Below, piece after piece: positions 3,913 through 64,000 of a stretch of 64,000 bases of DNA. The DNA is from Streptomyces sp. P3 (GTDB lineage Bacteria; Actinomycetota; Actinomycetes; Streptomycetales; Streptomycetaceae): NCBI RefSeq assembly GCF_003032475.1, contig NZ_CP028369.1:1426001-1490000 (forward strand), read 5' to 3'. Numbering within the stretch: position 1 is the stretch's first letter; each line of letters starts with the position of its first letter. Both the position numbers and the translations under genes were made by a program. The notes beneath the pieces are model-generated. The model worked only from the letters and a program-made list of their open reading frames with translations, was not told the DNA's origin and did no database searches.

Positions 3913-4275
3913 TCACCCCCTGGCCCGCTCCACGTCCTGCTCGTGCCGCCGCAGCCCCACGCTCGCCGCGCCCGTGGCGTACAGCGCGCCGCCCGCCGTG
4001 GCGAGGGGCGTTGCCAGGAGCAGGGCGGTGACCGGCCGGGGCCAGTCACGTTCGGTGGCGCAGCGCGTGGTCTTCCAGAGACCGTTTTCGGACGCCTCGC
4101 GTTCCGCGACGGCGGGCGCGTCACACTCCGTGCCGCCCTCCGTCTCGTACGGCGAGAACATCTGCCAGGCCGCGTACACCCACAGTGCGGCCGCGATGCC
4201 GAGCAGGATGACCCCCAGGCCGCGACGATTCTCCGCGCGGCTGATGAAACGTTCCTCGACGAATGCCGGATGCAT
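3913..4275 (-). CDS. Small two-helix membrane protein of unknown function
   Basis: A 120-residue protein with two predicted transmembrane segments: GVILLGIAAALWVYAAW near residues 20-37 and ALLLATPLATAGGALYATG near 84-103. Between them is a loop with two cysteines (TECDAPAV and TTRCATE) that would sit outside if both termini are cytoplasmic. The start is ATG 4273-4275 because GGGGGAGGAACC lies directly in front. The frame continues upstream to 4353, but that extension lacks a binding site. No family recognised. It lies upstream of mqnL with 39 bp between and may be co-transcribed. Confidence 0.7.
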   Translation of the reverse strand: MHPAFVEERFISRAENRRGLGVILLGIAAALWVYAAWQMFSPYETEGGTECDAPAVAEREASENGLWKTTRCATERDWPRPVTALLLATPLATAGGALYATGAASVGLRRHEQDVERARG

Positions 4276-54090: not shown

Positions 54091-57000
54091 TCAGGCGAGG
54101 CTCTCCGCCATCTCTTCCGCCTGCTTCAGGACGCGCTCGATCGCCGCGGGCTGCTTGTCCGGCGGGTAGCCGTGCTTGCGCAGCAGGCGAAGCACCCGGG
54201 CCATGATCTTGTCCCGGGCCTGCTCCTTCACCTTCCAGTCGACCGTGACGTCCTTCCGTATCTGCTCGTACAGCTCGTGCGCGATCTTCGCAAGGAGGGT
54301 GTCCTCCATCTCCTCCACCGCCGACGGATCGGCGGCGAGCGCGTCGTAGAAGGCGAGTTCGTCCTCTGTCAGTCCGAGCTTCATCGCCCGGCCGCGGTCG
54401 GCGGACACCTCACGGGCCAGGTTGACCAGGAACTCCATGAACTCGGCCGCGGTCAGCAGGCCGTTGGTGTACCGGTTCATGGCGGCCTTCATCTTCTTGG
54501 TGAAGGTCTCCTGCCGGGTGAGGTTGTTCGGGTGGGCGTCCTTGATCTCCTTCACCAGCGCGCGCCGGAGTGCCGCGATGGCGAGGTTGGGGTGCCTGCT
54601 CGCCTTCAGGTCGTTCAGCACCCGGTCGTCCAGGTGGGACAGGTCGGGCTTGGTGAGGCCGGCCGCGTCGTAGATGTCCACCACGCCCTCGGCGGCGACG
54701 ACGGACTCGTTGAGCTGAGCGATGAGGAGGCGTACGTCGGCGGCCGTGGCCAGCCCCTGCTCCTCCTTCTCGTCCATGGCGTACTTCTCGCGCGAGGTGC
54801 GCACGGCCTCGAAGAAGCGGATGTCGGGAAGCAGGTCCTGCACCCGCTCGTCGGTGGGGCAGAGGGAGAAGGCCTGCTGCAACAGGTTGGCGTGGTACAT
54901 GAACCGCTGCCTGCGAGTGGCCTTCTCGGGCTCCAGCTCGCGCTCGGGAGCGATCAGGAACTCCAGAACCTCCGTCAGCGCCTCCCGGTAGGCGCTCGGG
55001 CCGCCCGCGTCGCGGATCTCGCGCCAGGGGCAGCCGTACAGGAGTTCGTCGATGCGCTGATGGTTCTCGCGCACGAGTTGGACTGCCTGACGGAGATCCG
55101 CGCCGAGCATGGGGTTCTCCTGGTCCCGCTCGGAGTACTCGGCCAGGGCCTCCTTGATCTCCCGGATAACGCCCTGGAAATCGACGACCAGACCCGACGG
55201 CTTGCCCGGCCAGGTGCGGTTGACCCGGGCGATGGCCTGCATCAGGGCCGCGCCACGCATGCGCTTGTCCAGGTAGAGGGTGTGCAGGGGCGGGGCGTCG
55301 AAACCGGTCAGCCAGAGGGACTGGACGATGACGAGTTCCAGCACGTCGTCCGCGTCGGTGACCCGCTTCTGGATGTTCTTCAGCTGGGTCGGTGTGCGGA
55401 CGTAGTCGGCGACCTCCGGAAGGTCCCTCGCGGCATTGCCGGTGAACACGACCCGGATGCGACCGGTGTCGTCGGTGAGGAGGTGAGACTCAGGGTCCTT
55501 TACCCCCGCCCACTCGGGACGACGCCGGATGATCGCCTCGAAGAGACGCGCGGCGATGACCCGTGACGCGCAGACCACCATGCCCTTGCCAGGATGACCG
55601 GTGAGTTTGATCATCTCCGAGCGGCGCGCGTCCCAGTGTTGGAGAATCGTTCCGGCCAGCTCCTCGATGCGCGGCCGGGCGCCGATCAGGCTCTCGTACT
55701 CCCCGAACTGCCGACGGGCCTTGCGCTGCTCCTCCTCCGACAGCCCCTCTATCAGCCCTTCCGCGCGAGCGTCGAGGTCGTCGAGGTCGACATCGGCCGG
55801 GAGGTCGACGCGGACGAGATGCGGCTCGTAGTAGACGGGAACGGTCGCTTCGTCGTCGACGGCCTGGGTGAGGTCGTAGGTGTGGATGTTCTCGCCGAAG
55901 ACGCCCCGGGTGCTGCCGACGCCGTTCTCGATGGGGGTGCCGGTGAACGCGATGAACGTGGCGTTCGGCAGCGCGTCGCGGAGGTTGCGGGCGTAGCCGT
56001 CGATGAAGTCGTAGTGGCTGCGGTGCGCCTCGTCGACGACGACGATCACGTCACGACGCGGGGAGATGAGCGGGTGCCGGACACCCGCGTCCTTCTCCTC
56101 GTGGGTGAGGCGGAACTTCTGCAGCGTCGTGAAGATGACGCTGCCGTTGGCTTCCGGCCGCTGAAGCAGTCGGCGTAGCTGCCCTGTGCCGTCGGCTCTC
56201 TCCGGAGGGCCGGTGATCTTCTCCAGGGTGCGGCTGGCGGCGAAGGTGTCGTAGAGCTGGGTGTCGAGGTCGATGCGGTCGGTGAGGAGGACGAAGGTCG
56301 GGTTGGACAGCTCAGGCGTCCGCGCCGCCTTGCCGACGTAGAACAGCATCTCCTCGCTCTTGCCGGCGCCCTGGGTGTGCCAGACGACACCGGCCCGGCC
56401 GTCGGTGGCAACGGCGGACTCCGTCGCGCGCACGGCCGCGTTGACGGCGATGTACTGATGCGCCTTGGCGAGCTTGACCGTGTCGACCGCACCGGATTCC
56501 GGGGCCGAGTAGGAAAGGAAATTGGCGACGAGGTCGAGGAAACGGACAGGCTCGAAGGCCCCGTACAGCATCCGCTCCAGGGCACGCCCGTCCTGCCGCT
56601 CGTCCTTGCGGAGCAAGACGTCGTTCTCGTCGGCGTGCCAGGGGGCCATGTGCTGCCAGGGCGTGAAGGGAGTGCCCAGGCGGGCGGTGAGCCCGTCGGA
56701 GACGAGAGCGAGAAGGAGTGTGGCGAAGGTGCCGGTGTCCTTCAGCTCGCGCCGGTAGCCCTGGACCTGGTCGTAGGCCGTGCGGGCGCTGTCGTTGCTG
56801 TCGGCCTTCTTCAGCTCGATGACGGCGAGGGGCAGACCGTTGACGTACAGCACGATGTCGAAGACGAAGGTCCGGTTCTTCGTACTGCGCACCCGCACCT
56901 GGGAGGCGGCGACGAGATCGTTGCCGTGGGGGTCGGTGAAGTCGACGGGACGGATGCGGGCGTGCCGCTGCTCACCGGTGACGGGGTCGTCGTAGGGCAC

Positions 57001-57327
57001 GCTGACGCCGTCCGTGAGCCGTTCGTAGAACCGGTGGTTCTCACGAAGGTCGTTCCGGGTGTGCCAGCGCAACAACTCGTTGGCGGCGTCGTCAGCGACA
57101 TGCTCGGGCAGGCGTGGGTGACGGTTGCGGATCGCCTTGAGCAGGCGGGGCCGCAGGACCAGGTCGTCCCAGTCGGCCCGCACCCCGTGCGCAGGCCCCA
57201 ATTCCGGCCCAGGGATGTGCTGCCACCCGTACTCGGCAAGTATGTCGAGCGCGTGCAACTCCAACTCGGCCTCGGTGAGCCGGTCCATCGGCGGCTCACC
57301 AGGCACATGATCGGCGGCTGCGGTCAT
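54091..57327 (-). CDS. hsdR: Type I restriction enzyme, R subunit
   Basis: A 1078-residue HsdR of normal length. The N-terminal nuclease domain has FDIVLYVNGLPLAVIELKK, the PD-ExK pattern (about residues 165-185). The translocase follows: Walker A-like GAGKSEEML (about 310), DEAHRSH (DEAH box), and later helicase motifs FTGTPI and LWLTGFDAP, DKRMRGAALMQAIARVNRTW. The C-terminal helical region (after about 800) binds HsdM. It cuts and translocates unmethylated DNA. ATG 57327 overlaps the hsdS stop by 4 bases. Confidence 0.95.
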   Translation of the reverse strand: MTAAADHVPGEPPMDRLTEAELELHALDILAEYGWQHIPGPELGPAHGVRADWDDLVLRPRLLKAIRNRHPRLPEHVADDAANELLRWHTRNDLRENHRFYERLTDGVSVPYDDPVTGEQRHARIRPVDFTDPHGNDLVAASQVRVRSTKNRTFVFDIVLYVNGLPLAVIELKKADSNDSARTAYDQVQGYRRELKDTGTFATLLLALVSDGLTARLGTPFTPWQHMAPWHADENDVLLRKDERQDGRALERMLYGAFEPVRFLDLVANFLSYSAPESGAVDTVKLAKAHQYIAVNAAVRATESAVATDGRAGVVWHTQGAGKSEEMLFYVGKAARTPELSNPTFVLLTDRIDLDTQLYDTFAASRTLEKITGPPERADGTGQLRRLLQRPEANGSVIFTTLQKFRLTHEEKDAGVRHPLISPRRDVIVVVDEAHRSHYDFIDGYARNLRDALPNATFIAFTGTPIENGVGSTRGVFGENIHTYDLTQAVDDEATVPVYYEPHLVRVDLPADVDLDDLDARAEGLIEGLSEEEQRKARRQFGEYESLIGARPRIEELAGTILQHWDARRSEMIKLTGHPGKGMVVCASRVIAARLFEAIIRRRPEWAGVKDPESHLLTDDTGRIRVVFTGNAARDLPEVADYVRTPTQLKNIQKRVTDADDVLELVIVQSLWLTGFDAPPLHTLYLDKRMRGAALMQAIARVNRTWPGKPSGLVVDFQGVIREIKEALAEYSERDQENPMLGADLRQAVQLVRENHQRIDELLYGCPWREIRDAGGPSAYREALTEVLEFLIAPERELEPEKATRRQRFMYHANLLQQAFSLCPTDERVQDLLPDIRFFEAVRTSREKYAMDEKEEQGLATAADVRLLIAQLNESVVAAEGVVDIYDAAGLTKPDLSHLDDRVLNDLKASRHPNLAIAALRRALVKEIKDAHPNNLTRQETFTKKMKAAMNRYTNGLLTAAEFMEFLVNLAREVSADRGRAMKLGLTEDELAFYDALAADPSAVEEMEDTLLAKIAHELYEQIRKDVTVDWKVKEQARDKIMARVLRLLRKHGYPPDKQPAAIERVLKQAEEMAESLA

Positions 57328-58481
57328 ACGACCTCCTCAACGGCACGAACGGCGTCTCGCACCCGGAGCTTCCCGGAGAGGAGCTGGGGAAGAAGGGTGT
57401 CCCGGAGTTCGGCGAGGGTGCGGTTCTCGTGTGTCGCGGCAACAGCACGGTCGAGCAACGCTCCCACGCGTGCAGCGAACTCGATTGCCGACCGGCCCTG
57501 CGGAAGGCGCACGCGAAGACTCGCGACCCGCTCGGTGACCAGGCGCCCTGTGCCGTGTCCAGCGAGATCGACCATTGCCAGGATGTTGGCCGTCTGCGCC
57601 TTGATCGCCAAAAAGAGCGAGGCCGGGTCGATGTCCGGATGAGGGATGAGCGCCTTACAGTCCTGCCCGAACGCGACTTCTCGCTGCGCGACTCCGACCC
57701 TGAACTCCGAAGTCAAACTCATCCCACGGACCACAAAAAGAACAGTCCCCTTCGGCACCAGCCGTGTTCCGTTCCGCGCACCCACGCTGGTCACGCACCG
57801 CTCGGACTCGTAGAGCCAAGGCGTCTTGAGACTGGCCGCAGAAATCCAGGGAATGTCTCCTCCCCAGTAACTGGGCTCGCTGGTCTTGGGAGTACCCCCG
57901 GAAAGCCACTTCGCGGTCTCACTCAACGCGACCTCGACCCAACCATCGGGCTCGACGGATTCACGCTCGTAAATAGAGCCCGCCAATTCCAAGACCGTAT
58001 CCGCAAGCTGCTCATTGAGTGCAATCTTGCCATCCAGGGCACGCAGGAGGTCGGTCGCCGCATCTTGAGTCCGCCGGTCTGGCACGACGAGTTGGATGGA
58101 ATTAAGAGCCGCCTGCGTCAATTTCGGTTGAGTTGAACCAGAGAGATATCCCGAAATGTCCATATTCGCCAGGAGGTAACTCAGGAAACGGCTATCTACC
58201 GTCTCATCCCCCTGCAGAACATGAGCATGATTGTTCACCCAAAATTTTCCCGACGCCATAAAGGCGATTGGCGTTTTCCTGGTGCGCAGATTCTCCCCAT
58301 CCTCTGCCACGAGTAGGTACTCGCCGTCGAAGAGGTAGTTGTCTACATGGTCAACGACTCCTGATGCCCCGTAGTAGGGGTAAGGACCAGAGACTCGATC
58401 CTGCGCTTTTACCGGAGCGCGTCGAAAGTCAAAACTTCTGGTAACTTCACCAAGCCTCACCTTGCGCCACTCCCCCATCAC
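57324..58481 (-). CDS. hsdS: Type I restriction enzyme, S (specificity) subunit
   Basis: A 385-residue HsdS. Two target-recognition domains (about 1-150 and 190-330), separated by conserved helices (LLRALDGKIALNEQLADTVLEL and AVAATHENRTLAELRDTLLPQLLSGKL). The start GTG 58481 overlaps the hsdM stop (ATG 58478 is an alternative). The part at 57.9-58.4 kb is much AT-richer than its neighbours (58201-58260 is 29/60 G+C), a sign that this recognition domain came from elsewhere. It sets the methylation and cutting sequence. Confidence 0.93.
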   Translation of the reverse strand: MMGEWRKVRLGEVTRSFDFRRAPVKAQDRVSGPYPYYGASGVVDHVDNYLFDGEYLLVAEDGENLRTRKTPIAFMASGKFWVNNHAHVLQGDETVDSRFLSYLLANMDISGYLSGSTQPKLTQAALNSIQLVVPDRRTQDAATDLLRALDGKIALNEQLADTVLELAGSIYERESVEPDGWVEVALSETAKWLSGGTPKTSEPSYWGGDIPWISAASLKTPWLYESERCVTSVGARNGTRLVPKGTVLFVVRGMSLTSEFRVGVAQREVAFGQDCKALIPHPDIDPASLFLAIKAQTANILAMVDLAGHGTGRLVTERVASLRVRLPQGRSAIEFAARVGALLDRAVAATHENRTLAELRDTLLPQLLSGKLRVRDAVRAVEEVV

Positions 58482-60091
58482 ACCCTCCCCAACTGCTCGT
58501 CCACAACCTTCGCCAACCGCTCCGACTCAGCGAACTGCTCCCGCAGCAGCGCCGTCAGCCGGGCGATCTTCTCCTCGACCGGCTCCGCATCCGGATCGAC
58601 CTCGACTTCAGCCGATCCGACATACCGCCCCGGCGTCAGCACGAAGTCGTGCTCGGCGATGGCCCCCAGCGGAGCGCTCACGCAGAAGCCCGGCACGTCC
58701 TCGTAAGGCCGGCCGCTCTCCACCCCTCGCCACGCCCGAACCGTGTCACCGATGCGCCCGACGATCTCCTCCTCCGTCAGCACCCGCAGCGTCCGGTTCT
58801 CCATCTCCCCGAACTCACGCGCGTCGATGAACAGCACCTCGCCCTTGCGCTCCGGTGCCCACCCCGAGTGCCGTCCCTTGCCCTCCGCGAGGAACCACAG
58901 GCAGGCCGGGATCTGTGTGGACCGGAACAGCTGGCCCGGCAGGGCGATCATGCAGGCGACCAGGTCGTCCTCGACCATCGCGCGCCGGATGTCACCCTCG
59001 CCGGACTGCTTGCTGCTCATCGAGCCGTTGGCAAGGACGACGCCCGCGCGTCCGCCCGGCGCCAGCTTGCTGATCATGTGCTGGAGCCAGGCGTAGTTCG
59101 CGTTGCCGACGGGCGGGGTGCCGTACACCCACCGCTTGTCCATGCCGAGCAACTCGCCGCCCCAGTCGGAGATGTTGAAGGGCGGGTTGGCCATGACCAC
59201 GTCCGCCTTCAGCTCCGGATGCTGGTCGTTGCGGAACGTATCGGCGGGCTCGTCGCCCAGCTTGGCCTCGACGCCGTGGATGGCGAGGTTCATGTGGGCC
59301 AGCTGCCAGGTGGTCTGGTTGAGTTCCTGGCCGTAGACGCCGACGTTCAGCGGGTTGCCGCCATGGGTCTCGATGAACTTCTCCGCCTGGACGAACATGC
59401 CGCCCGAACCGCACGCTGGGTCGTACACCCGCTCGCCCTGCTTCGGTTCCAAAACCTCGACGAGCAGCTTCACCACACTCTCCGGGGTGAAGTACTCGCC
59501 GCCCTTGCGGCCCTCCTTGAGGGCGAACTCCGCGAGGAAGTACTCGTAGACCTCGCCCATGATGTCGCGCGCGCCCCGGCGTTTGCCGTCCTCGCCGAGC
59601 TGCTCCTGGAAGACCAGCCGGTCCAGCAGCTTCACCAGGCCGGCCAGGCGCTCACTGTCGACGCGTCCGCTGTTGTAGATCTTCGGCAGGGTCCGGTTCA
59701 GTGACGGGTTGAACTTCTCGATGGCGCGCATCGCCGCGTCGATGGTCTCGCCGACGCTCTGGCCCTCGACCGTGCCCTTCGCCCGCTCCAGGACGCTCTC
59801 CCAGCGCGCGGTGGGCGGCACGTAGAAGATCCCGGAGCCGGTGTACTCGCGGCGCTCCTCAAGCGTGGCGAGGAGATCGGCCTCGCTCCAACCGCCCTCC
59901 TCCCGCAGCTCGGCCTCCAGCTGCGCCCTCTTCTCGGCCATGGCGGCGGAGACGTACTTAAGGAAGACCAGGCCCAGCACGAAGTGCTTGTACTCGGCGG
60001 CGTCCAGGCTGCCGCGCAGCTTGTCAGCCGACGCCCACAGCACCTTTTTCATGGCCGGGGGCTCGGTCGTCTTCTTCATGCGTGGCGGCAC
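58478..60091 (-). CDS. hsdM: Type I restriction enzyme, M (methyltransferase) subunit
   Basis: A roughly 537-residue HsdM. The N-terminal bundle ([25 protein letters not shown]) is followed by the methylase core: SAM motif [10 protein letters not shown] (about 265), and catalytic NPPF in [17 protein letters not shown]. It adds a methyl group to the adenine N6 of its target. The start is set at GTG 60091 (VPPRMKK), which has GAGG five bases ahead; ATG 60079 or 60052 are possible. It overlaps hsdS. Confidence 0.94.
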
Positions 60092-60183
60092 CAGTGCCTC
60101 GTTTCCTTCTCGTTCGCGTGTTCTCGTCGTACGCCGTGACGGCGGAGGAACGGACGTGTGTCGCCCGTCGCCCCCGCCGATGC

Positions 60184-62370
60184 TCAGGTACCGCCGGTTC
60201 TGCGCCGCAGCGCGACATCCCCGTCGGCGACCCCGGCCGCCAGCCGCAGGGCCAGGTTGTCCAGCGCCTGCAGTTGGCGCCTGACCTGCGCTCGCTGCCG
60301 GTCCGTCTCGCTCAGGATGCTCTCCAGTTCGGCGACCTCCTCGGGCGGCAGCTCCGGCACGTCCATGTCCCGCACGCTCACCCTCCGCACCAGGGAGCCG
60401 CTGCTGCGCTGCTGGTTGCGCGGGGCGGCGAGCAGCTGAGCCAGCGGCTGGGGGCGCATCCACAGCTCCTCGGAGCGGGCCTCTCCCGCCAGGAACGGAC
60501 GGTACGCGGCGATCCGCAGCCCCTGAACCGGTGCCAGCAGAACGCATCCGCCCGCATCGTCGACGTGTGTACGGATGCCGTGCTCGGTCAGCAGGAAGAC
60601 ATCGCCGCGCTCGGTGACCACCGCCTGCGGATACTGCGCCAGGTCCTCCAGCGCGATCCGCCTCTTGCCGAACGGCAGCGCGCCGAGCATCTCCTCCCGG
60701 CCGACGACCGGCAGTCCGGCGTCCCCGATGTCCGCCTCGCGGATCCGGTGACCGGCCAGCAACCTGAGCTGGCCGCCCTTCAGGTGCTCCCCGACTTTGC
60801 GGTGCGCCAACCTTGCGTCCGGCTGCCGTCTGGCGACGCCGAGATCGCCTATCCAGTCCTTGAGCCGGGGCAGTGCGACGGCGGCCTCTCGGCGGGCGTC
60901 CAGGGTCGCCGAGAAGTGGTCCAGGCCCTGCTCCTTCGCGGCGAGCCGATGCGCGGGCAGGACCGAGCGGCCGTCCAGGAGGGATGCCGCTCGCGGCCCC
61001 GTGTCCCACACGGGAAAGAACCCGGCCTCCTCGTCCACCGGTGAGCGCCCTGCGACCAGTACCTCGGCCACGTACCCGACCCACTCCCCGCCGACCCGAC
61101 GGGCGATGCGGTCGGCGTCGACCAGCAGCACGTCGCCCGGTTCCTCCTGCGAGGATTCCTCCTGCGACGCCACGCCACGCAGTACCAGCAGTGCGTGCTC
61201 CGCGCCCGTACGGAACGGGTGGATGCGGCGCGGCAGTTGGACGACAGCGGACACCGCACCACCGCTCAGCAACTGCTCCCGCATCCGCATACTCGGCGTC
61301 GGCGCCGTGACGCGAGGCCGGCTCAGCGTCCACGACGGCACGACGACATAGCCCCGTCCGCCCGGCTTCAGCCGCCGTACGGCCTCCAGCGCCCAGCCGA
61401 GCGGCCCGTCCTCGTCGGACTCCCGCTCACCGGAGGCGTAGGGGGGATCGGCGAGGACCAGATCCGCGGACGGCATGCCCCAGGGGCGGTCCGGATCGAG
61501 GTCGAACTCCCGCTGCTCCCACGGCCGCAGGGTGTCCAGGTCCCCTGGGCGGGCGCATACGTCCACGGCGGTGCAGTAGTGGGCGAACAGCCGGTACAGC
61601 AGCAGCTTGGCGCGCAAGGGGTCGGACTCCACCGCCACGATGTCACCGCGGCCGCCGATGTCGTCCCGGACGAACAGCAGCTCACCGGTCCCCGCACACA
61701 GGTTGATCACCGACGGCTGGCCGGGGCCCGCGGTCAGCACCCCGGACGGGCCGACCAGGCGGCTGATCAGCCCGGCGAGCGTCGGCGGTGTCGTGTCCGT
61801 CGTCAGGTCCGATTCCAGCCGCTCGGCCAGTCCTAGCACGGTGTCGGCGGCGACGCCGGGCGAGCCGAGTTCCTCGATGAGCTCGCGGACGGCACGGGCC
61901 ACACGGGGATCGGCGTTCTCCGCGTCTTCCACCAGTTGTTCGGGGAGAGCTTCCCGGTACCAGTCGCCGCCCTCACCCGCCATGGCACACACCGCGAGCG
62001 CGTCGACGATGAGCCGGTTCGCGGAGCCCAGTTCGTGGCGCAGCGCGACCAGCCCGCGCAGTCGCAGTCCTCGCCGGAACCGGTCGCCGTAGGTCGGGAC
62101 GGTGTCGTCCTCGTCCGGCTCCGCGTCCGGGATCGGGCGCAGGTCCAGCCAGGACGCCACCTCCTCGGCGTCGAAGAGAGGCCTGCTGTCGCTGCCCGCC
62201 ACGGGATCGGGGAACGGCGCGCGCCGGTCACGGCCCGCTTCCAGGACGTCCTTGGCGAACCGGCGTCGCCAGTTGCTGACCGTAGGCCGGCCGACCTCGG
62301 CGAGCTCCTTGATCTCCCCGAGGGAGACCAGTGCCGACCCGTCCGCCACGCCGGTTACCTGCGCCGCCAT
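60184..62370 (-). CDS. N6-adenine DNA methylase with N-terminal HTH and C-terminal specificity-like region
   Basis: A 728-residue protein. The N-terminus has a DNA-binding unit (SLGEIKELAEVGRPTVSNWRRRFAKD, about 10-45) and DAEEVASWL. The central methylase core has the SAM motif INLCAGTGELLFV (about 230) and the catalytic DPPY (LADPPYASG, about 320). The C-terminal 250 residues resemble the target-recognition and helix pattern of HsdS (PPEEVAELESILSETDRQRAQVRRQL). A single protein could thus choose and methylate its site. Start ATG 62370 because GGGAGCGGAG precedes; GTG 62424 is an alternative. No restriction domain found within it. Confidence 0.8.
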   Translation of the reverse strand: MAAQVTGVADGSALVSLGEIKELAEVGRPTVSNWRRRFAKDVLEAGRDRRAPFPDPVAGSDSRPLFDAEEVASWLDLRPIPDAEPDEDDTVPTYGDRFRRGLRLRGLVALRHELGSANRLIVDALAVCAMAGEGGDWYREALPEQLVEDAENADPRVARAVRELIEELGSPGVAADTVLGLAERLESDLTTDTTPPTLAGLISRLVGPSGVLTAGPGQPSVINLCAGTGELLFVRDDIGGRGDIVAVESDPLRAKLLLYRLFAHYCTAVDVCARPGDLDTLRPWEQREFDLDPDRPWGMPSADLVLADPPYASGERESDEDGPLGWALEAVRRLKPGGRGYVVVPSWTLSRPRVTAPTPSMRMREQLLSGGAVSAVVQLPRRIHPFRTGAEHALLVLRGVASQEESSQEEPGDVLLVDADRIARRVGGEWVGYVAEVLVAGRSPVDEEAGFFPVWDTGPRAASLLDGRSVLPAHRLAAKEQGLDHFSATLDARREAAVALPRLKDWIGDLGVARRQPDARLAHRKVGEHLKGGQLRLLAGHRIREADIGDAGLPVVGREEMLGALPFGKRRIALEDLAQYPQAVVTERGDVFLLTEHGIRTHVDDAGGCVLLAPVQGLRIAAYRPFLAGEARSEELWMRPQPLAQLLAAPRNQQRSSGSLVRRVSVRDMDVPELPPEEVAELESILSETDRQRAQVRRQLQALDNLALRLAAGVADGDVALRRRTGGT

Positions 62371-62428
62371 CTCCGCTCCCACTCGTTCTCGATCGTCCTT
62401 TCCGGCAACCGCCGCCGGCGTCACGAGC

Positions 62429-63127
62429 TCACAGCCGCATCGGCTCCTCGCCGGAGAGCACCGCGTTCCTGCGCGCCAGCACGTCAGGCACCTGGCCGTA
62501 CTTCTCGTGCCGGTCGGCCATCTCCGGTGAGACGTGCCGCATCAACGTCAGCGCGGTCTCCAGGTCCCGCTGCAGATGCCGCTGGAAGACGGACTCATGG
62601 TGCGCGATGCGGTTCCGCAGCGTGAGCATGAACTGGAACTTGGTGTACAGGTCGTCCCGACCACCGCGGTGCTCCAGGAACACATGACGGAGTGAAGAGT
62701 TCCAGTACTTCATCTCGTAGTTGTCACGGCCACCACGCCCGAGCAGGCTGACCCAGAACCCGAAGGAAAGCTGCGCGACGATGTCGCACGGACCGAACGG
62801 GCGGTACGGTCGCCTGCCCTCCAAGGTCTCGCGCGCCCCGTCCAGCATGTCCAGCCCCTTGTGGTTGGGCCGAGCCTTCGGAACGTCCCACCACGCCTCT
62901 TGACCGTGCTTGCCCACGAGCTGACGGTGGAGCCGGTTGCGCAGGCTCACCTCAAGGTCGCGCAGGGGGCTCTGCAGAGCGCGGGCCACCTCCGAGTCCC
63001 AGGCGTACAGCCGCAGTGCGCGCCTACGGTCACCTCCGCACTTGTGCAGGAACGGCTGGAACCGCTCCTGAGAGATGGCCGCGATTAACCCGTCGTCCTC
63101 GTTCGCCCCACGATCACTCAGCGTCAT
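62429..63127 (-). CDS. Abi-family (Abi_2/AbiD-AbiF-like) HEPN protein
   Basis: A 232-residue Abi_2-family protein. The HEPN ribonuclease motif R-N-x3-H is seen in LRNRIAHHESV (about residues 169-179), and the N-terminal SLRNRLHRQLV is a second R-N-x3-x set. Such proteins cleave RNA and stop growth after phage attack. Start ATG 63127, with AAAGGA six bases ahead. Codon 14 is TTA (63086-63088), the only one I noticed in the insert. The protein is the first gene of the defence operon, 4 bp from the methylase frame. Confidence 0.85.
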   Translation of the reverse strand: MTLSDRGANEDDGLIAAISQERFQPFLHKCGGDRRRALRLYAWDSEVARALQSPLRDLEVSLRNRLHRQLVGKHGQEAWWDVPKARPNHKGLDMLDGARETLEGRRPYRPFGPCDIVAQLSFGFWVSLLGRGGRDNYEMKYWNSSLRHVFLEHRGGRDDLYTKFQFMLTLRNRIAHHESVFQRHLQRDLETALTLMRHVSPEMADRHEKYGQVPDVLARRNAVLSGEEPMRL

Positions 63128-63327
63128 CACGCGTCCTTTCGCCCGTGACCCGCCCGTGGTAGGGTCTGTCGAGTAAGCCTTGGATCACTGTCACTGCATC
63201 GCATACAGCCCTTGGCAGTGCTTGGTTGTGGCCCCCGAGTCCGCCCGCCCAGTTCAGGCGGACTCGGGGGCACAGCTGCCTCTGAGGCAGGGCGGCTCGG
63301 AGTCCGCATCGCATCGACCGGCCCCCA
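63128..63327 (-). ncRNA. Structured leader / candidate ncRNA of the Abi operon
   Basis: About 200 nt between the predicted start of transcription (near 63327) and the Abi ATG, no open frame. Three stems can be read on the minus strand: a 15-bp perfect stem (63271-63257 with 63245-63231, loop 11), a 5-bp stem (63290-63276) and a 6-bp stem (63220-63215 with 63197-63192). GCGGACTC at 63307-63300 copies part of the long stem's 3' arm, so it can pair with the 5' arm instead. Abi_2/abiF-linked RNA motifs are known; whether this is one was not tested. Confidence 0.5.
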
Positions 63328-63333
63328 CTAATC

Positions 63334-63362
63334 ACAGTAGTAGTCGCGGGATCCCAGGTCAA
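63334..63362 (-). promoter_or_regulatory. Promoter of the Abi/methylase/hsd operon
   Basis: On the minus strand, TTGACC at 63362-63357 (-35) is followed after exactly 17 bp by TACTGT at 63339-63334 (-10), an almost ideal vegetative (HrdB-type) promoter. The predicted start is near 63327, after the terminator that ends the hemD unit and before the structured leader. Confidence 0.7.
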
Positions 63363-63436
63363 CGTTTTACAGATACCTACTTGTGAGAAGCACCCTTCTC
63401 AGAAGGAGCTGGCGTTCAAGTACACCAGTGAAAACA

Positions 63437-63477
63437 CGTGCGCCCTGCCTCTCCAGCGCGGAGAGGCAGGGCGCACG
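63437..63477. terminator. 17-bp perfect-stem terminator after the hemD unit
   Basis: C plus GTGCGCCCTGCCTCTC (63437-63453) pairs perfectly with GAGAGGCAGGGCGCAC plus G (63461-63477) around a 7-nt loop. It stands 30 bp downstream of the hemD-type stop (63508) and separates that operon from the Abi promoter. Confidence 0.9.
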
Positions 63478-63507
63478 GCCTGTCTGGACAGCGAACGGCG
63501 CAAGCAG

Positions 63508-64000
63508 CTACGTGGCCCGCCGCCTGCGCGCCCCCGGCCGCCGCTCGCTCGGGCGGCTGACCGGGTCGCCGGCCTCCTGGGCCGCCGCGCGCCGGCGCAG
63601 GCCGAAGTCGGCCAGCGCCTCGGCGAGCTTGTGCACCGACGGCTCGGGAGCCATCACGTCGACCCTCAGCCCGTGCTCCTCGGCCGTCTTGGCGGTCGCC
63701 GGGCCGATGCACGCGATGACGGTGACGTTGTGCGGCTTGCCCGCGATACCCACCAGGTTGCGCACGGTGGACGACGACGTGAAGAGCACGGCGTCGAAAC
63801 CGCCGCCCTTGATCGCCTCGCGTGTCTCCGCCGGCGGCGGAGAGGCCCGCACGGTCCGGTAGGCGGTGACGTCGTCGACCTCCCAGCCCAGCTCGATGAG
63901 CCCGGCCACCAGGGTCTCGGTGGCGATGTCGGCGCGCGGCAGGAACACCCGGTCGATCGGGTCGAAGACCGGGTCGTAGGGCGGCCAGTCCTCGAGGAGC
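63508..64000 (-). CDS. hemD: Uroporphyrinogen-III synthase (HemD-type, C-terminal part; runs off the window)
   Basis: The last 163 codons of a gene that continues right of the window. The sequence matches the C-terminal half of HemD: VFLPRADIATETLVAGLIELGWEVDDVTAYRTV, DAVLFTSSSTVRNLVGIAG and ACIGPATAKTAEEHGLRVDV. It closes hydroxymethylbilane to uroporphyrinogen III. In Streptomyces it is commonly fused to an N-terminal uroporphyrinogen-III methyltransferase; that part is not visible here. The tail after about 63580 is Arg-rich. Its stop is followed by a strong terminator. Confidence 0.9.
   Translation of the reverse strand, partial: LLEDWPPYDPVFDPIDRVFLPRADIATETLVAGLIELGWEVDDVTAYRTVRASPPPAETREAIKGGGFDAVLFTSSSTVRNLVGIAGKPHNVTVIACIGPATAKTAEEHGLRVDVMAPEPSVHKLAEALADFGLRRRAAAQEAGDPVSRPSERRPGARRRRAT

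Follow-up and report, generated by a model that had tools for sequence, protein, structure and literature searches.

The 64,000-nucleotide (nt) stretch of Streptomyces sp. P3 contig NZ_CP028369.1 analysed here (hereafter the window, by whose positions all features are cited) carries on its minus strand a leader with a conserved RNA core, directly followed by the gene for an AbiF-like HEPN protein, termed Abi below. We consider it probable that this leader yields an AbiF-type RNA antitoxin restraining the HEPN toxin encoded behind it, and this account in full is the best explanation of the locus. Conservation, covariation, gene order, the HEPN motif, an AbiF-like predicted fold and the distribution of a candidate operator are what the analysis shows. 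Homologue and RNA loci are numbered L, and genomes G.

The core is the most conserved element of the leader and is common to the upstream regions of the relatives of the window Abi. In a first MAFFT alignment of 19 cores, made after exclusion of L017-L023, the seven Streptomyces loci that are most distant, 88.6% of the cells of the P1-P2-P3 hairpin were paired, compared with 33-44% in slid controls, and 20 two-sided changes were counted against 9.0 in shuffles (0/500 with as many), both figures including an optional helix, P0. Two other counts did not stand out from the shuffles: pairs showing two-sided changes (5 against 3.9; 146/500) and further pair types (11 against 14.0; 500/500). In alignment A3, comprising 58 distinct sequences and, being model-fitted, biased toward the model, P1 was 92.6% paired with two-sided changes at 7/7 of its pairs; overall, 50 such changes were found against 18.2 in shuffles (0/500) and 27 in the best slid control, while further pair types were no higher than in shuffles (469/500). 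The original prediction had proposed looking for compensatory changes in the leaders of homologues, and the structured RNA does covary, in the core hairpin. P0 (CYGUG with CACGG) was 69.9% paired, with two-sided changes at 3/4 pairs, and is unformed in the window lineage. Two elements are conserved outside the hairpin: UUAC, which follows P1, and, at the 3′ end, UANCACGG. The latter was considered by eye as a -10-like promoter element and dropped, having no -35 partner.

Among 199 Streptomyces genomes, 23 (the window's own included) gave Abi protein matches, at 24 places; relatives at 85-87% identity lie on two named contigs, of S. griseoluteus (L025) and Streptomyces sp. RB17 (L026). With covariance model R1, 31 of 392 Streptomyces genomes gave matches at 32 places in all, 17 of these places being from its training set, and Abi lay directly downstream at 29/32 (28 of 31 regions plus G197), or 12/15 of the non-training places. 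When 345 genomes drawn from the class were searched, R1 gave 27 places in 25 genomes, two counted before, with Abi downstream at 16 of the 25 new places (one a fragment); non-training matches from Streptomyces and the class draw together thus have Abi downstream in 28 of 40 cases. In the reciprocal direction, 296 genomes of the class were searched with a protein profile, and 38 contained Abi. Of 30 Abi loci so obtained, 24 have a match to model R2 that shares the orientation of Abi and precedes the protein match by 4-65 nt, three have one on the opposite strand and three have none. Twelve of these 30 loci were in R2 training, and 12 of the remaining 18 match; the match at L216, one of the 24, reaches only an expectation value (E) of 0.5, and a match 1.4 kb away scores better. 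The seven distant loci L017-L023, outside the training of both models, gave five R2 matches in the right place at E ≤ 0.0011, one at 0.73 (L020) and none at L019. Of five plasmid relatives examined (of 693 matching records), four carry a match immediately upstream and in the orientation of Abi, those of Ancylobacter (3.8e-10) and Agrobacterium (1.5e-8) among them, and the Mycolicibacterium relative carries one on the opposite strand. Seven of 42 viral-contig loci searched (of 56) match at E ≤ 10, all on the Abi strand immediately upstream of Abi, the sole strong match being L178 (3.7e-6). At loci with a trustworthy start call the core ends 1-70 nt from the Abi start codon; L026, L068, L077, L078, L086, L095, L097, L099, L123 and L128 were excluded for poor start choice, and L097-L103 because the figures there were not taken from an RNA.

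Several further loci were noted in passing. The core is present at L090, L128 and L068, where Abi is missing, fragmentary or frameshifted, and the Abi-less cores L094:4001-4078 and L096:14001-14078 (-) are each convergent with homologous NERD-domain genes; at L094 two tandem copies are seen by eye, the second just downstream of 4001-4078. A general link to NERD-domain genes was rejected, since only these two of 30 NERD loci carry the RNA (a third match, at E 0.91, is taken as noise). The coordinates of a second R2 match, L226:1341-1414 (-) (E 0.01), put it about 76 nt in front of a second Abi gene nearby (G498:C2:786141-786803). The leaders of distant viral-contig Abi relatives L148, L152, L155, L157, L159 and L188 have weak or no model scores and show a similar plan by eye, often a 5′ hairpin followed by a core-like hairpin; they may be further RNA subfamilies.

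The window Abi scores 23.7 bits against Pfam Abi_2 (PF07751), just under the gathering cut-off of 25.6, and 12 of 27 aligned relatives match Abi_2 at E ≤ 0.001; its likeness to PD-T4-5 (E 1.5e-9) and AbiD (9e-6) in PADLOC consists of weak family matches. Sequence searches of the PDB gave no relative, and fold comparison alone gave one: the predicted fold matches 8vz6, PbAbiF with its non-coding RNA. An AbiF fold, as predicted, and an invariant HEPN motif RN-x3-H are both present, as expected of an AbiF-type (type III-like) toxin, together with the conserved structured RNA 5′ of the toxin gene that such a toxin-antitoxin pair would have.

The kind of system, AbiF with an RNA antitoxin, is already known. 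In the available portions of the sources, the C. difficile AbiF toxin is bound directly, and thereby neutralised both in cis and in trans, by the RNA encoded ahead of its gene (PMC12373285), and AbiFr is the antitoxin of PbAbiF and is trimmed by the toxin itself (review, PMC12737573). Because these two precedents, the literature on HEPN genes in restriction-modification (R-M) operons and the 8vz6 match combine, an RNA antitoxin appears to be the best reading, one that rests on homology and conservation. The window system departs from AbiF-AbiFr (Zilberzwige-Tal et al., Cell 2025, through the available parts of PMC12737573 and PMC12373285) in the 13% identity of its Abi, in an operon with a helix-turn-helix (HTH)/methylase gene and type I R-M, in an optional 5′ hairpin and in an RNA unmatched by Rfam abiF. 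With AbiFCd-RCd22 of C. difficile, as far as the available text of PMC12373285 describes it, it shares an RNA 5′ of an Abi_2/AbiF gene, a hairpin motif and the HEPN R and H; RCd22, however, contains a pair of abiF motifs as well as a Rho-independent terminator, whereas the window leader has one core of other sequence and no such terminator was seen. Unlike classical type III systems of the ToxIN kind, there are no tandem repeats: R1 has one match in the window's genome, in the leader, and two tandem copies were seen, by eye, only at the Abi-less L094.

The proposal that the leader is an abiF-type RNA held in so far as it is a structured, covarying RNA tied to an Abi/HEPN gene, as abiF RNAs are, and failed in so far as it is not the Rfam abiF RNA. 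When Rfam was scanned over 60000-64000 at E ≤ 10, 12 matches were returned, all below cut-off and none of them abiF; those on the 5′ hairpin H1 included mir-6644 (E 0.12) and PK-repBA (E 0.5), among others. No match to abiF RF03085 (gathering cut-off 37 bits) was obtained in homologue loci (sets of 16, 9, 18 and 19), nor any above cut-off in 14 genomes, and Rfam abiF identity was rejected, there being no match beside Abi in the window or the tested homologue loci. Sub-threshold abiF matches in two genomes lie far from their Abi genes, one of them inside scr4677. No Rfam family of any kind passed its cut-off at the leader, the only over-cut-off matches being an unrelated tRNA (L178), SAM-IV (L231) and scr4677 (L036). 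The two RNAs are alike as short hairpins directly upstream of Abi_2/AbiF-type genes on the same strand, both with a basal stem and a 3′-heavy internal loop (from a partial abiF consensus); they differ in the loop, CAAAUC in abiF as against GCAGAGGC and UUAC in the window-type core, and in that nothing over or near cut-off precedes the Abi genes tested.

The perfect 15-bp stem of H1, which the original prediction described, does exist and is part of the minimum free energy fold; as a conserved element it did not survive comparison, proving variable and optional. The fold of the 200-nt leader is better than most shuffles, though not strikingly (z -2.03; 6/200 equally good). A strong hairpin (z at most -2) occupies the H1 position in 24 of 46 loci, against 4/46 in a stretch some 300 nt farther up that served as control, with 22 of the 30 Streptomyces loci and 2 of the 16 others having one; its sequence varies among loci while the pairing is maintained. 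The leader was also said to hold no open frame, but a 66-codon ATG frame crosses it and extends beyond the Abi start. A leader peptide was rejected and the frame is probably non-coding, because neither L025 nor L026 conserves the peptide.

Table 1. Features of the leader and operon, in window positions.
Feature	Position	Strand	Remarks
Candidate operator, palindromic, TGAGAA-N6-TTCTCA	63384..63401	.	Upstream of promoter
Promoter-like pair TTGACC (63362-63357)-17-TACTGT (63339-63334)	63334..63362	-	Predicted transcript start near 63327
H1, optional 5′ hairpin	63231..63271	-	Perfect 15-bp stem 63271-63257/63245-63231
Conserved RNA core	63154..63230	-	Models R1, R2; most conserved leader element
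Core P1	63216-63210/63183-63177	-	
Core P2	63208-63205/63191-63188	-	
Core P3	63203-63201/63197-63195	-	
Core UUAC	63176-63173	-	After P1
Core 3′ element UACCACGG	63161-63154	-	
AbiF-like HEPN protein, 232 aa	62429..63127	-	ATG at 63127; GTG 63130 alternative start
Gene 2 (MT2), 746 aa	60184..62424	-	N-terminal HTH-like segment (by eye) and N6-adenine methyltransferase domain (Pfam N6_Mtase)
HsdM, type I modification subunit	58478..60079	-	Pfam HsdM_N, N6_Mtase
HsdS, type I specificity subunit	57324..58481	-	Pfam Methylase_S, two stretches
HsdR, type I restriction subunit	54091..57327	-	Pfam HSDR_N, SWI2_SNF2 and others

Abi sits inside an R-M operon (Table 1), with a second methylase and HsdM, HsdS and HsdR downstream on the same strand forming a complete type I system. 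The window belongs to architecture A (12 loci), in which the RNA is followed by Abi, an HTH/N6-methylase and HsdM, with HsdS and HsdR matches in all except L074; at L025 and L026 the HsdR stretch reaches the locus end. Architecture B has the RNA, Abi, an HTH/N6-methylase of about 560 aa, whose N-terminus and methylase part align with those of gene 2 (27% identity, E 3e-12), and a short S-like gene, with no HsdR match within the up to 9 kb scanned. It is often flanked by a 191-aa gene upstream and 145- and 321-aa genes downstream, which we take to be FABP-like, Fur and YgfZ genes. L071-L073, L075, L077, L078, L080 and similar loci seemingly place it at one chromosomal site, which suggests vertical inheritance; L088 and L089 have other R-M arrangements. 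Up to 9 kb downstream of Abi, a methylase-type gene was found at 29/30 Streptomyces loci, 8/16 other RNA-plus-Abi loci (one an Abi fragment, one with only 602 nt of contig remaining) and 0/7 of the most distant Streptomyces Abi loci (one with about 1 kb remaining); of the two partners, the RNA is thus the more constant.

The promoter-like pair claimed ahead of the leader is present, and its TTGACC element is retained in L025 and L026. Across the 12 architecture-A loci, a scan with permissive settings and no chance control gave clear pairs (-35 TTGACC, TGGACA or TTCACA) in eight and weak ones in L076, L079, L092 and L093. The palindrome upstream has a single exact copy in the 9.85-Mb genome and occurs in 12/12 architecture-A loci (the L093 version ends in G) and 0/53 other loci scanned, being replaced by GGGGTTAACA in eleven other Streptomyces loci. 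As operator type varies together with gene 2, it is suggested that the gene 2 HTH-methylase binds this candidate operator. Neither the operator, nor the core, nor the complete type I R-M downstream had been mentioned in the original prediction. Further upstream, a strong terminator-like hairpin (63437-63477) is seen by eye after a gene at 63508-64000 (-), which we presume to be the end of uroporphyrinogen-III synthase.

We infer transcription, binding, neutralisation, processing and a trigger as follows. A transcript from about 63327 would comprise the optional 5′ hairpin and the core, then Abi and the methylase/R-M operon. By analogy with PbAbiF and C. difficile AbiF, the core hairpin would be bound by a dimer of the HEPN protein, blocking its RNase site, and the toxin would probably trim its own leader and so release the RNA. 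Were infection to lower the supply of a short-lived RNA, or host transcription to stop, the freed HEPN RNase could cleave cellular RNA and arrest growth. In Streptomyces the module is nearly always joined to a gene for an HTH/N6-adenine methyltransferase or another methylase, in the window together with a complete type I R-M system, and the HTH protein would probably set transcription via the operator. A doubtful but conceivable extension is a two-lock actinobacterial module, in which an AbiFr-like RNA holds the toxin while the HTH N6-methylase sets the RNA dose from an operator that is specific to the clade and precedes the RNA promoter.

P1 of the window lineage carries two A-A mismatches, and there the consensus core fold is not the free-RNA minimum, which weakens the case for the window's own copy. 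The several competing folds of that lineage would suit a leader acting in cis only, its core being bound, within the Abi mRNA, by Abi itself or some other factor, with feedback on translation or transcription and no antitoxin in trans; the closeness of the core to the start codon agrees with this, as does RCd22, which according to the available text of PMC12373285 also acts in cis, by termination. Such a restriction to cis is nevertheless unlikely, given that cores persist where the Abi gene is not intact and that action in trans too is known from the nearest relatives studied. A PrrC-like lock, with R-M subunits keeping the HEPN RNase inactive until phage anti-restriction releases it and the RNA secondary, draws on the frequent methylase linkage and on Anantharaman et al. 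(2013, PMC3710099), the available part of which lists Abi2/AbiF/AbiD in R-M operons and proposes this lock for HEPN genes there. The window shares that placement with the PrrC-EcoprrI logic and differs in having a conserved RNA partner, also at loci with no methylase found (L091, L135, L137, L141, L143-L145); architecture B, with no HsdR match, and the greater constancy of the RNA likewise make this lock quite improbable.

Since AbiF has been put at the root of Cas13 (in the available part of PMC12737573) and H1 varies in sequence yet remains paired, the core might anchor a variable 5′ part that, as in Cas13, steers the HEPN RNase toward its targets; the variable part is, however, double-stranded and weak or absent in 14/16 non-Streptomyces loci, no spacer-like array was seen, and such a guide is very improbable. 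Hardly credible is an infection-sensing attenuator built on the decoy at 63300-63307: the 8-base repeat GCGGACTC stands in the window, but it is absent from all six relatives checked (L025, L026, L085, L087, L092, L093), so the postulated two-fold switch falls and a riboswitch or attenuator with decoy pairing was rejected. No U-tract hairpin was seen by eye between 63154 and 63128, where no dedicated terminator scan was run; homology, position and fold appear to favour an AbiFr-like RNA antitoxin over an infection-sensing attenuator.

No title or abstract dealing with this RNA in Actinobacteria came up in the literature search, most subscription papers lying outside it; to the extent of these searches, the RNA family is undescribed, as are its range among Actinobacteria and the methylase/operator coupling. 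AbiF toxins with RNA antitoxins are proposed ancestors of Cas13, and Rfam abiF matched none of the RNAs examined, so a second RNA family, found mainly in Actinobacteria and searchable with a covariance model, widens the known range of AbiF RNAs and flags untyped Abi genes as likely RNA-held toxins. The operon offers a testable case of an RNA-controlled HEPN toxin embedded in a DNA-modification operon; if the two-lock extension were true, loss or sequestration of the methylase, for instance by a phage anti-restriction factor, would shift the ratio of RNA to toxin and fire the toxin.
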